Under the pieces are notes generated by a model. That model was given only the letters and a program-made list of their open reading frames with translations. It ran no database searches and had not been told where the DNA came from. A DNA stretch of 40,589 nt from Chloroflexota bacterium (GTDB lineage: Bacteria; Chloroflexota; UBA11872): NCBI GenBank assembly GCA_026707585.1, contig JAPOWQ010000048.1:1-40589 (forward strand). The letters are read 5' to 3'. Numbering within the stretch: the first letter of the stretch is position 1; the number at the start of each line of letters is the position of its first letter. Positions 32,979-38,098 of this stretch are shown one piece after another. A program made the translations under genes and the position numbers.

Positions 32979-33036
32979 AGCGGGCGGGCGGGGGGCCGAA
33001 CCCCGAAGGGGTGGGACCTACCCACATGATGCACCC
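32979..33036 (+). repeat. Dispersed GC-rich repeat, copy 1
   Basis: A ~55-60-nt element. Its first 26 nt (32979-33004, GGGCGGGCGGGGGGCCGAAC core) recur perfectly in inverted orientation at 38073-38098. The matched GGGACCTA (33013-33020) and TGATGCACCC (33027-33036) recur as GGGACCTA and TGTTGCACCC at 38046-38069. Internally AACCCCGAAGGGGT can form a small hairpin. It bounds the AT-richer segment on its left. Confidence 0.7.
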
Positions 33037-34128: not shown

Positions 34129-34321
34129 ATTCCTTTTCGTCATCCTCTGGCATATCCGGTACTGGCGGCAATGAGTCCGGCGGCGTACGCAGGATCGCCG
34201 TCAGAAAACTGTCAAACGCTTCACTTTCTTCTTCGCTGTGTTCCTTTTTTTCGGCCTCGCCGCGTGACTCCCTTTCGCAATTGCCTGGCTTTACGCTTTC
34301 GCAGTTGTTTCCGTTGCCCAT
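34127..34321 (-). CDS. Small acidic protein overlapping the transposase 3' end
   Basis: A 64-residue hydrophilic protein: MGNGNNCESVKPGNCERESR, an Glu-rich middle, then FDSFLTAILRTPPDSLPPVP. The F..FL..LL..PP pattern is a recurrent motif of small bacterial proteins of unknown role. It overlaps the last ~100 nt of the transposase in another frame. It ends at the terminator with TAG. The protein-like composition in a different frame from the transposase supports it as real. Confidence 0.6.
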   Translation of the reverse strand: MGNGNNCESVKPGNCERESRGEAEKKEHSEEESEAFDSFLTAILRTPPDSLPPVPDMPEDDEKE

Positions 34322-35234
34322 GTTTCAAGTCCTCGTAGGTAAGGCGCGTGCCGTTGACGTGCTGCAAGAATACATCAAGGCGATCACCGTCTGGTAGTCG
34401 CCGCAGATTCCAGCGCAACTCAAACTCCCGGAGGTAGAGATCGCAGTGTTTCTGTGACCACTGGTGGTAAATGCCTTTGTGCGCTCGCTTGACAATGGCC
34501 CAGAACGATTCAATGGTCTGAGTGTGAACATCACCATTCACGTATTGTCCAATACTGTGATTTGTGTTTTTGTGTTTGTGTTGGGGAAGACGCTTATAGG
34601 CTCCATGCTCGTCCGTATACACGGTCGATCCGCGATACACGCGCCGCATAATGAATGCCTGCAAGGAATTCCGGTCACGATAGGGAACGCGATCAGTAAT
34701 GACCGCCCCATTGCGTTCAACGGCTCCAACAACAATGGTCTTCCCCTGCATCCAGTTGTTGTGCAGTTTCTTTTTTGCGTGTTTGTTCCTCTCCTTCCCG
34801 CCGATGAAGCACTCATCGACTTCAATAATCCCTTTCAAAATTTCAACTGCCATGTTATCAGCCACCTGGCGCAAGCGGGATAACATAAACCATGCCGTCT
34901 CCTGCTTCACGCTGATCTCACGCGCCAGTTGCGTTGATGGAATTCCTTTCCTGTTCGATGTGAACAGAAAAATTGCAGCGAACCACTTGCGCAGGGGAAC
35001 CTTGCTCTCTTCAAATATCGTGTCCTTGCGTGCCGAAAAGAACGTCTTGCAGTACGAGCACTTGAATCTGAGCTTTACTTTATAGGCGCGACCGACGACT
35101 CCACAGTTCGGACAGACTTCACCATTCGGCCATCGCATCCGAGCCAAGTGGTCTACACATACGCGCTCTGACGGGAAGGCTTCCAATACATCATAGACAC
35201 TTCTAACATTCCGACTCGGGGAGCGGTATTGCAT
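34221..35234 (-). mobile_element. IS1595-family transposase
   Basis: The 337-residue transposase has an N-terminal zinc ribbon (Cys41, Cys44, Cys59, Cys62) and the ISXO2/IS1595 DDE core: Asp140 in IIEVDECFIGGKERNKH, Asp208 in VYTDEHGAY, and Glu242 in HTQTIESFWAIVKR. The family's YHQWSQKHCDLYLREFELRWN block follows. The C-terminus is a basic extension (about 285-337) not essential to the core. I could not find convincing terminal inverted repeats on either side, so the insertion sequence may be degraded or its ends not obvious. The gene has AT-richer composition than the core genome. Confidence 0.92.
34221..35234 (-). CDS. IS1595-family transposase coding sequence
   Basis: Intact reading frame of the insertion sequence described at the same coordinates. 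The start at MQYRSPSRNVRSVYDVLEAF is supported by the conserved FPSERVCVDHLARMRWPNGEVCPNCG block beginning at residue 20, and by the AGGAGA-like sequence shortly upstream. All catalytic and zinc-binding residues are present, so the enzyme is potentially active. It would cut and paste the element with 8-bp target duplications as in its family. Confidence 0.9.
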   Translation of the reverse strand: MQYRSPSRNVRSVYDVLEAFPSERVCVDHLARMRWPNGEVCPNCGVVGRAYKVKLRFKCSYCKTFFSARKDTIFEESKVPLRKWFAAIFLFTSNRKGIPSTQLAREISVKQETAWFMLSRLRQVADNMAVEILKGIIEVDECFIGGKERNKHAKKKLHNNWMQGKTIVVGAVERNGAVITDRVPYRDRNSLQAFIMRRVYRGSTVYTDEHGAYKRLPQHKHKNTNHSIGQYVNGDVHTQTIESFWAIVKRAHKGIYHQWSQKHCDLYLREFELRWNLRRLPDGDRLDVFLQHVNGTRLTYEDLKHGQRKQLRKRKARQLRKGVTRRGRKKGTQRRRK

Positions 35235-36188: not shown

Positions 36189-36779
36189 TTACTTTATCCA
36201 CTCAGGCTTCTCAACTGGCGGCATTTCGATGATAGCAAGCTGAAACGAATGAGTTGCAATGTTCATCCGTCTCAACACTTCGACGAAGGTCTGCTCCTGT
36301 ACCCGTAGATTCTCGGTCGTATTCCCGGCAGTCATTAGACCAAGTGCTGAGTCGATATTGACACAAGCTTGTGACAGTATTCCGCGAACCATGTCATACC
36401 GACTGGTACGATGTAGGCCATAGCCCAATACAGGGTATGGCGCGTCAATTGGGTCGTCGGCAACAGACATTCGTTCAAGTGTCGCCAACTCATTTAGATG
36501 CATGATGCAGCGCCGAGCTGCCGTTTCAAGCCTAGAAAGATCGAATGGCGGCCTGACTTCTGACGCATGTGGCGCAGCCAGGTAGTCTGCAAGCTGTACA
36601 GACTCCTCTCGAATCGTTTCAAGGGTCCGGTCGATCCCGACAGCGTTCTGCCATGCAATCTCCACAAATGATTTGTCGTAAATGTGCGTTCGGTCAACGT
36701 CGATTGAATTCTCTGAAGCAGTACAGGATATGAGGATCAGGATTGCGCTCGAAAGGACAAGGATGACTCGTTTCAACAT
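36189..36779 (-). CDS. Putative lipoprotein of unknown function
   Basis: The 196-residue product has a signal peptide (MLKRVILVLSSAILILISC) ending in a lipobox-like LISC, so Cys19 would be lipidated and the protein anchored on the outer face of the cytoplasmic membrane. The rest is soluble, helical and acidic (DKSFVEIAWQNAVGIDRTLE, LETAARRCIMHLNELATLERM). No domain recognised. Upstream lies a strongly structured stretch at 36803-36919. Confidence 0.75.
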   Translation of the reverse strand: MLKRVILVLSSAILILISCTASENSIDVDRTHIYDKSFVEIAWQNAVGIDRTLETIREESVQLADYLAAPHASEVRPPFDLSRLETAARRCIMHLNELATLERMSVADDPIDAPYPVLGYGLHRTSRYDMVRGILSQACVNIDSALGLMTAGNTTENLRVQEQTFVEVLRRMNIATHSFQLAIIEMPPVEKPEWIK

Positions 36780-36802
36780 AGCGATCTACTCCCTTAAACA
36801 GA

Positions 36803-36919
36803 GGCGGTCCTACGCCATGCCGCCGAAGTTGTGTCCTTGCCACAGGAGGCACATCCGGCAGCCGCGTAGGACCGCCAGGACACATGGGTGCAAACAAAGG
36901 CGCACCCGCCTCCTGTGGC
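36803..36919. repeat. Cluster of interlocking perfect inverted repeats
   Basis: Four sets: A GGCGGTCCTACGC (36803-36815 with 36864-36876), B GTGTCCT (36831-36837 with 36877-36883), C GCCACAGGAGGC (36839-36850 with 36908-36919) and D GGGTGC (36886-36891 with 36902-36907). A, B and C interleave, so they cannot all form one nested fold: alternative or pseudoknotted structures are implied. It lies in the divergent gap between the lipoprotein gene and the small gene at 37091. Confidence 0.8.
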
Positions 36920-37090
36920 GCACAATTCTAGCATTCTTGAATTTCGTGCTACAATTCACTAGGCGGCGGGCCGGTCCTGAGTGCCCACTCATCGTTGCTT
37001 AGAATCCTAAGCTGCGAAAACCGGCCTGCTGCCAGTGATTTGAGGAATTCGATGCTGCGAAAGGCAAATAGAGGTCCAAAGGAGACTTAA

Positions 37091-37292: not shown

Positions 37293-37324
37293 AAAGGCCC
37301 TGGGCACAGAGACCCAGGGCCTTT
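37293..37324. terminator. Bidirectional terminator between convergent genes
   Basis: AAAGGCCCTGGG (37293-37304), an 8-nt loop and CCCAGGGCCTTT (37313-37324), flanked by an A-run on the left and by TCTTGTATTTT on the right. It serves both the plus gene ending at 37279 and the minus gene ending at 37333. Confidence 0.9.
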
Positions 37325-37614: not shown

Positions 37615-38014
37615 ACCAGACTCCCGAGTGCCCAACGGCCAAGATCGGCCACGATCAGCGTAGGCACAGGCAGGAATGGGTCGCAAGAGGTGAGACGTAG
37701 ACAAACTGTGGACAGTAAGGGCAGCCGCTCCCACGCAGCCGGACGATGCCGATTAAGCCGCGTAGCGTGCTTTTGGGCCGTCTGGTACCGTCTGCGGCAT
37801 GGCGATGGTGCGAGCGGCGGCGATCTCTCACGAGGCCTGCACTCCGCCGCTCGCACCGCGAGCAAAGCTCACTTGCCAACCTGTTATCCAGGCCGGCAGT
37901 CAGTATTACCACACACGCCGTATACACCTTCAACAGCTTTGTCATACCTCGTCTGAATGTGTGGGAACGGCTTAATAGCCTGCGTCCCGACGAGTGGCCG
38001 AATATTCAGCCGGT
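37615..38014. other. Non-coding stretch with a 14-bp hairpin
   Basis: No gene is supported. A perfect inverted repeat GGTGCGAGCGGCGG (37807-37820 with 37844-37857, 23-nt loop) lies in the middle, and the 7-mer CCGTCTG is repeated at a 10-nt period nearby (about 37778-37796). A short frame with a signal-peptide-like start (MTKLLKVYTACVVILTAG, minus from 37945) lacks a spaced ribosome binding site and loses protein character. Confidence 0.55.
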
Positions 38015-38045: not shown

Positions 38046-38098
38046 GGGTGCAACAGGCGGATAGGTCCCGAAGGGGTTCGGCCCCCCGCCCGCCCGCT
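38046..38098 (-). repeat. Dispersed GC-rich repeat, copy 2 (inverted)
   Basis: The inverted counterpart of copy 1 (32979-33036). It has 26 identical nt (38073-38098), then a short deletion relative to copy 1, then GGGACCTA (38062-38069) and TGTTGCACCC (38046-38055). Together the copies bracket the AT-richer segment. Confidence 0.7.

Follow-up and report, generated by a model that had tools for sequence, protein, structure and literature searches.

Interleaved helices define a probable family of 5′ leader RNAs in Chloroflexota

Results

The locus and its interlocking repeats

The window analysed here is a stretch of 40,589 nucleotides from a Chloroflexota genome (GenBank assembly GCA_026707585.1, contig JAPOWQ010000048.1). 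It contains an island of low GC content (about 48%, against 61–71%), bracketed by a 26-bp exact inverted repeat, in which an IS1595-type (ISXO2-like) transposase gene, a lipoprotein gene and a compact group of inverted repeats are found (Table 1). The first-pass annotation had described this group, from the sequence, as three perfect repeats of 13, 7 and 12 bp in the order A-B-C-A′-B′-C′. All three are present in that interleaved order, the 13- and 12-bp repeats as claimed, while B/B′ measures 8 bp, one more than reported. Nowhere else in the window does one perfect repeat of 10 bp or more interleave with another within 120 bp; such a pair appeared in three of 100 Markov-simulated windows, and one of at least 12 bp in none. 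Its folding z-score is −5.4 on the plus strand and −5.0 on the minus strand. Its three-interleaved-helix score, 33.3, was reached by none of 200 shuffles, and the same score computed over 5612 background windows peaked at 28.2, with a single window at 27.5 or above and none at 29 or above. The interlocking repeats are thus confirmed and far exceed what chance would produce.

Read on the minus strand, where C/C′, B/B′ and A/A′ become helices a, b and c, the element shows two extra pairings, namely a fourth helix d and a small hairpin h. The resulting order is promoter, a-h-b-c-d-a′-b′-d′-c′, AAGGGAG and the ATG of the lipoprotein gene. Nested folding recovers only part of this structure, either the long c/d hairpin or the a:a′ helix.

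Table 1. Coordinates of the features of the element and its surroundings in the window
Feature	Coordinates	Strand	Remarks
Repeat A/A′	36803-36815/36864-36876		13 bp, perfect
Repeat B/B′	36830-36837/36877-36884		8 bp
Repeat C/C′	36839-36850/36908-36919		12 bp, perfect
Leader promoter TTGTAG - 18 nt - TAGAAT	36925..36954	-	extended -10, TGC before; read in sequence
Helix a, 5′ strand	36908..36919	-	predicted RNA 5′ end; perfect 12 bp with 36839-36850; covariation
Hairpin h (GGGTGC...GCACCC)	36886..36907	-	between a and b; arms 36886-36891/36902-36907
Helix b, 5′ strand	36877..36884	-	8 bp with 36830-36837; 0 nt to c
Helix c, 5′ strand	36864..36876	-	13 bp with 36803-36815
Helix d, 5′ strand	36854..36862	-	nested in c; 9 bp with 36819-36827, two G-U
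Helix a, 3′ strand (a′)	36839..36850	-	perfect repeat; covariation
Helix b, 3′ strand (b′)	36830..36837	-	repeat; covariation
Helix d, 3′ strand (d′)	36819..36827	-	helix list; covariation
Helix c, 3′ strand (c′)	36803..36815	-	perfect repeat; covariation
Ribosome-binding site AAGGGAG	36789..36795	-	just 3′ of c′; read in sequence
Lipoprotein gene, 196 aa	36189..36779	-	signal peptide, LISC lipobox by eye; no Pfam match
IS1595-type (ISXO2-like) transposase	34221..35234	-	PF12762, E 1.6e-39; same low-GC island
26-bp exact inverted repeat, left copy	32979..33004	+	brackets low-GC island
26-bp exact inverted repeat, right copy	38073..38098	-	brackets low-GC island

Other structured stretches were observed in the window. 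Beside the element, at 36955-37040 on the plus strand, lies a second structured element, a near-perfect three-way junction with plus-strand G-U pairs and a z-score of −5.3, followed by a 62-aa open reading frame with a ribosome-binding site and then by a terminator at 37293-37324. Neither a search of 41 genomes with a model of this junction (R2) nor searches with the 62-aa frame brought up a convincing relative. Relative to GC content, no other fold of the window is as stable (z −9 on the plus strand) as that of a 26-bp perfect inverted repeat at 33549-33574/33622-33647 with a 47-nt loop. A sequence 78% similar to one of its arm regions exists in G005 (L024), in which no repeat of this kind was detected. 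A 14-bp perfect inverted repeat (GGTGCGAGCGGCGG) occupies 37807-37857, a stretch without a clear gene.

Relatives are recovered by structure

BLAST searches with the element DNA yielded no convincing homologue in the genus (13 genomes) or the class (41 genomes). Against genus, class and plasmids, the element DNA returned itself and chance matches, to which the whole island added the transposase and other stretches outside the element. A covariance model built from the window element alone and pairing c, d and h (R1) was run over the 41 class genomes and matched G004:C50 (E 4e-9) and G005:C20 (E 8e-4); a weak match (E 0.11) fell at the 5′ part of a lipoprotein-like paralogue located elsewhere in the window's own genome. 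When the strongest possible helices were compared between the window, G004:C50 and G005:C20, the top four proved to be a, b, c and d each time, interleaved alike and built of different letters. These three elements served to build a further model (R3), in which only c and d are paired, and which was searched over 40 relatives and, with stricter filters, over 400 genomes of the phylum.

The full a-b-c-a′-b′-c′ architecture was found in 11 of the 14 tested matches, each equalled by none of 200 shuffles. These complete members are the window element and C72 of the same genome, G004:C50, G004:C62, G004:C3, G005:C20, G006:C7, G015:C62, G015:C24, G016:C45 and G017:C10. One further member, G004:C7, is cut, as it starts inside the element at a contig end. 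Three degenerate copies (C65 of the window's genome, G006:C3 and G006:C16) lack the full architecture; G006:C16 has a helix score of 0 and was classed by eye as degenerate since it keeps the d region and an a′-like loop before a lipoprotein gene. In the R3 search, one taxonomic family was represented by 19 genomes (two genera, with the window's genome among them), and 7 of these contain full members.

Several candidates were discarded. G214, the sole match outside the family at E ≤0.01 in the 400-genome search, was dropped by eye because the architecture is absent, as were three pattern matches in other phyla, as well as C48 of the window's genome and G030:C9, whose helix lists do not contain it. 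Seven of eight weaker R3 matches, with helix scores of 0–21.8, were also removed. The pattern search gave 48 rows, six of which are known members, and its control gave 40; two exact patterns had no match in viral contigs.

Rfam 15 has no match in the window element at the gathering threshold, nor up to E 10 around it, the 11 rows up to E 10 near the element all lying at 37.2–37.35 kb. Likewise, no Rfam match was obtained at the elements of 12 other loci (gathering threshold) or of eight members (up to E 2), with C65 (L073) set aside. No description of the family was found in the titles and abstract starts of the open-licence PMC papers that the searches listed. A structured leader RNA is a known kind of element; the fold and setting of this one are apparently new within the Rfam and literature searched. 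We are highly confident that the element belongs to a new RNA family.

Covariation supports each helix on one strand

Helices c and d, to which the alignment was fitted so that their statistics lean in their favour, comprise 272 cells, 91.2% of them paired. Changes on both sides occurred in 35 cells, against 15.0 in shuffled alignments (matched by 0 of 500) and at most 9 in slid ones, and the covariation score was 0.436 against 0.245 (0 of 500) and at most 0.139. The covariance model contained no pairs for helices a and b; 88.5% of their 209 cells are paired and 39 changed on both sides, compared with 13.4 in shuffled alignments (0 of 500) and at most 10 in slid ones, with a score of 0.397 against 0.177 (0 of 500) and at most 0.093. 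Their column pairs were picked from rows that pair, a favourable bias which the slid control answers in part. A weaker covariation measure, that of further pair types, was equalled by 12 and 22 of 500 shuffles. Compensatory changes are present in each of a, b, c and d. The first-pass annotation had proposed a covariance search in relatives and an unrecognised structured, pseudoknotted RNA; the search produced relatives with such changes in every helix, which strongly supports that proposal.

When a, b and c were aligned by hand in the 11 complete members, in registers selected for their pairing, 378 of the 383 cells held standard pairs, with 33 G-U and one A-C on the leader strand. Such an excess of G-U on one strand indicates that the paired molecule is the RNA of that strand. 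Some letters within the helices are conserved beyond what pairing needs, namely CCAC/GTGG in a, GCGGCC in c and CGCTGG/TTCAGCG in d. Helix lengths vary across members from 10 to 16 bp for a, from 8 to 12 bp for b and from 11 to 16 bp for c; in G004:C3 helix a is unbroken over 7 bp, and in three members d is unbroken over 4 bp. A single rigid fold might not tolerate such variable lengths and so short a helix d. The gap between b and c is 0 nt in 10 of 11 members, with shared bases assigned to c, whereas a′ and b′ are separated by 1–5 nt, and three members have no room for h.

The element lies between a promoter and a gene start

The −10 box of the window promoter, which a consensus promoter scanner did not list, begins 11 nt before helix a. 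In all 12 readable members a TANNNT motif starts 11–13 nt before helix a; among 23,362 control points, 245 (1.05%) have one. The readable members are the 11 complete ones and G006:C3; G004:C7, whose 5′ end is missing, and C65 of the window's genome, in which helix a is indistinct, were left out. This would place the transcription start at about helix a. At the other end, a start codon follows c′ by 17–27 nt in 10 of the 12 members, with a ribosome-binding site identified by eye that is weak in G016:C45. In G004:C50 and G006:C3 a ribosome-binding site is present with no start codon directly behind it; an exported or membrane gene lies about 100 nt further on. Conserved structure between promoter and gene start is the broad hallmark of cis-regulatory leader RNAs, and this arrangement makes it very probable that the RNA is the leader of the downstream gene. 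The annotation had linked the element to both neighbouring genes. The link to the lipoprotein gene, on the leader strand, stands; that to the small gene on the other strand does not, as the relatives have their gene behind c′ on the leader strand, where the G-U pairs fall. In the window alone, and in excess of all 200 shuffles, a ten-base segment spanning the start codon of the lipoprotein gene is able to pair with the d′/c′ region on the minus strand at 36777-36825 (CGGCATGGCG/CGCTATGTTG).

The genes behind the leaders are mostly unrelated in sequence and, where scanned, carry almost no Pfam domain and no common one. The window lipoprotein, used as a query against 101 genomes, retrieved one weak paralogue in its own genome and nothing else, and no close relative was found among assembled genome contigs. 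An identifiable product is the superinfection-immunity-type membrane protein behind G015:C24 (L079; PF14373, E 1e-17). In readable members, the first gene or a later one of the short operon encodes a signal peptide, a lipobox or a membrane segment, as assessed by eye and, in 13 of the 15 cases, also from a hydropathy maximum with no background rate for comparison. The exported or membrane protein is encoded by a later gene of the same short stretch in G005:C20, G004:C3 and G004:C7.

Similar genes were noticed by eye behind leaders of different species. G004:C3 (L076 5554-6298) and G005:C20 (L085 4295-5036) precede alike two-gene operons, each encoding a soluble protein of 82-85 aa and a lipoprotein, and related small membrane proteins with the pattern LCAWVASERGR..W..LGLLLG..AFIPLA are encoded from L081 4230 and L075 648 onwards.

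Mobile context

IS1595-type transposases occur at 6 of the 14 loci, the window and five of the other 13, a plain count of co-occurrence within examined flanks that differ among loci from 0 to 7.9 kb. Paired terminal repeats enclose both transposase and element at G004:C62 (27/29), G005:C20 (24/26) and, more weakly, G015:C62 (21/26), and none were found around G004:C3. At G004:C62 the element lies about 37 bp inside a terminal repeat. The 26-bp inverted repeat that brackets the island of the window is possibly the end of a mobile unit, and is unlike the terminal repeats of the relatives.

The transposon at L085 3905-6868 illustrates such a unit: its terminal repeats enclose the RNA leader, the lipoprotein operon, an IS1595-type transposase and two tRNA-like genes, one for Ala (TGC) and one with an indistinct anticodon. 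At L033 2425-2640, between lipoprotein and transposase, inspection by eye revealed a long structured stretch with the complementary segments CTGAAGGGGCAG...CTGCCACCCCTTCAG and further ones, possibly a second RNA of the transposon.

Topology and coexistence of the helices

In 11 of the 14 matches, three helices each cross the other two, which is the ABCABC or pseudotrefoil order. We had initially supposed that the four helices were sterically unable to coexist, an idea contradicted by a rigid-body model with A-form helices and real linker lengths, in which linker paths, ions and folding order are ignored. In this model all four helices were placed within tolerance in 95 of 110 runs, and in at least 5 of 10 runs for each of the 11 members, whereas a zero-linker control gave no success in 10. 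At this coarse level the geometry would permit a, b, c and d to be present simultaneously. With straight-line linkers, 89 of the 95 accepted models were knotted, the knot type varying, and 5 of 10 models built from a, c and d only were called knotted too.

Discussion

Proposed mechanism and alternatives

We propose that the element is a 5′ leader of about 110–140 nt, extending from about the transcription start to just before the ribosome-binding site. As the RNA emerges, its short free 5′ end (helix a) would fold into the loop of the c/d stem and pack with b into one compact pseudoknot, hiding the 5′ terminus and blocking decay that depends on it, while the ribosome-binding site after c′ would stay single-stranded and translation open. 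Three observations point to a 5′ roadblock with open translation: the predicted 5′ end lies in helix a, the ribosome-binding site lies outside a–d, and RNase J is encoded, the TIGR00649 family being matched in all 19 genomes searched, in 18 of them above the cut-off, and also in 13 of the 14 control genomes, in 9 of them above it. For Bacillus, passages of PMC3997798 describe message stabilisation by 5′ roadblocks and explain it by RNase J1. The folded roadblock as the mechanism is plausible, at somewhat less than even chance in our judgement, and the explanation as a whole, a 5′ leader RNA family with an ABCABC fold and a roadblock, appears reasonably probable.

The first-pass annotation had favoured competing folds, and a switch, either kinetic or controlled by a ligand or protein, could have a and b pair first and c and d later replace them (or the reverse), thereby gating translation of the exported protein. 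Nested folds of the growing chain pass from a:a′ at 118 nt (−60.7 kcal/mol) to c:c′ at 126 nt (−71.4), as such a switch would; with the start codon included, the forced a:a′ and c:c′ folds are close (−71.3 against −74.7), and in a slightly longer window leader the a:a′ fold becomes the minimum (−76.8) and masks the start codon. The 10-bp masking helix of the window was equalled by none of 200 shuffles, but of ten members tested only the window has one that exceeds shuffles, so that it is not taken as a family mechanism. Moreover, the rival helices a, b, c and d share no strand, nested energies ignore pseudoknots, and the coarse three-dimensional model permits coexistence. For a riboswitch, no hint of a ligand was seen. 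Since each strand has one covarying partner of its own, a composite fold is favoured over a switch, which we regard as possible but unlikely. The leader might instead be a binding platform for a protein, from the host's RNA-binding repertoire or from the transposon, that controls the message, the knot-like fold merely presenting the site. The letters conserved beyond pairing need in a, c and d would suit such a role, but they are also explained by shared ancestry within one bacterial family and no candidate protein is linked to the element, the scanned downstream genes having no domain in common; we consider this improbable.

An independent small RNA acting in trans from its own promoter, the gene behind it being incidental, draws on the promoter directly at the element and on the two members without a start codon behind the ribosome-binding site; set against this, no terminator is reported in or directly after the window element and the start codon follows closely in most members, which makes it highly unlikely. 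The least credible reading is a DNA-level element, that is, a folded single-stranded recombination or transposon-end site resembling attC, in line with the recombination site suggested by the annotation. Copies do lie inside IS1595-type transposons, one of them near a terminal repeat, but the one-strand asymmetry of 33 G-U against one A-C largely refutes this reading, the −10 box before and the start codon after the element form a fixed frame, and the terminal repeats are separate sequences. The consensus boxes of attC are RYYYAAC (R″) and GTTRRRY (R′); the former occurs in none and the latter in one of the 14 elements, which do not resemble integron attC sites. A DNA inversion site was rejected as well, the A-A′ loop spanning just 48 bp and holding no promoter, and so was an intrinsic terminator, as there is no T run and none is reported at the window element.

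Relation to known systems

The proposed blocking of a 5′–3′ exonuclease by a fold recalls viral xrRNAs, which are ring-like; the present leader has no Rfam match. A compact triple-pseudoknot RNA just before a start codon is likewise found in the dicistrovirus IGR IRES, which, compared here by description, is viral and recruits ribosomes directly, whereas the present leader is bacterial and is followed by an ordinary ribosome-binding site. The ABCABC order of three crossing helices is that of the pseudotrefoil or triple knot, named as a topology in passages of PMC3390330 and PMC4885603; here it is found in a conserved family, with helices mostly of 8–16 bp. The 5′ stabilising elements treated in part of PMC3997798 are likewise placed at the 5′ terminus of a bacterial message where RNase J is present; they are Bacillus roadblocks, while here a conserved multi-pseudoknot is concerned, with a predicted effect.

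Whether RNAs tie knots is termed an enigma in PMC5381007, according to which a pseudoknot is able to knot when two of its helices reach about 11 bp, and knots in solved RNA structures are termed exceptional in PMC11218946. Compared with the knot candidates of the former, the present RNAs have three crossing helices supported by covariation, not all of which reach 11 bp; at least a and c usually come close to, or exceed, the length given for knotting. Our most far-reaching proposal, which we hold to be rather doubtful, is that in the finished leader the crossing helices a, b and c, each close to one full helical turn, are all formed at once. The leader would then be a naturally knotted and evolutionarily maintained RNA, tied by threading its free 5′ end (helix a) and spreading with transposon cargo as a portable, cap-like 5′ shield.

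The family illustrates that families defined by structure can escape BLAST, as none of the present relatives was retrieved in that way. Although small, it offers three evolutionarily kept crossing helices with covariation for each, in a leader accessible to in vitro transcription, so that the knot question can be addressed directly. For the bacteria that carry it, the promoter and leader seem to form a module common to unrelated exported proteins, some of them transposon cargo. A gene jumping with its own promoter and leader would be stably expressed wherever it landed, and this module may be how transposon cargo gets expressed at a new site.
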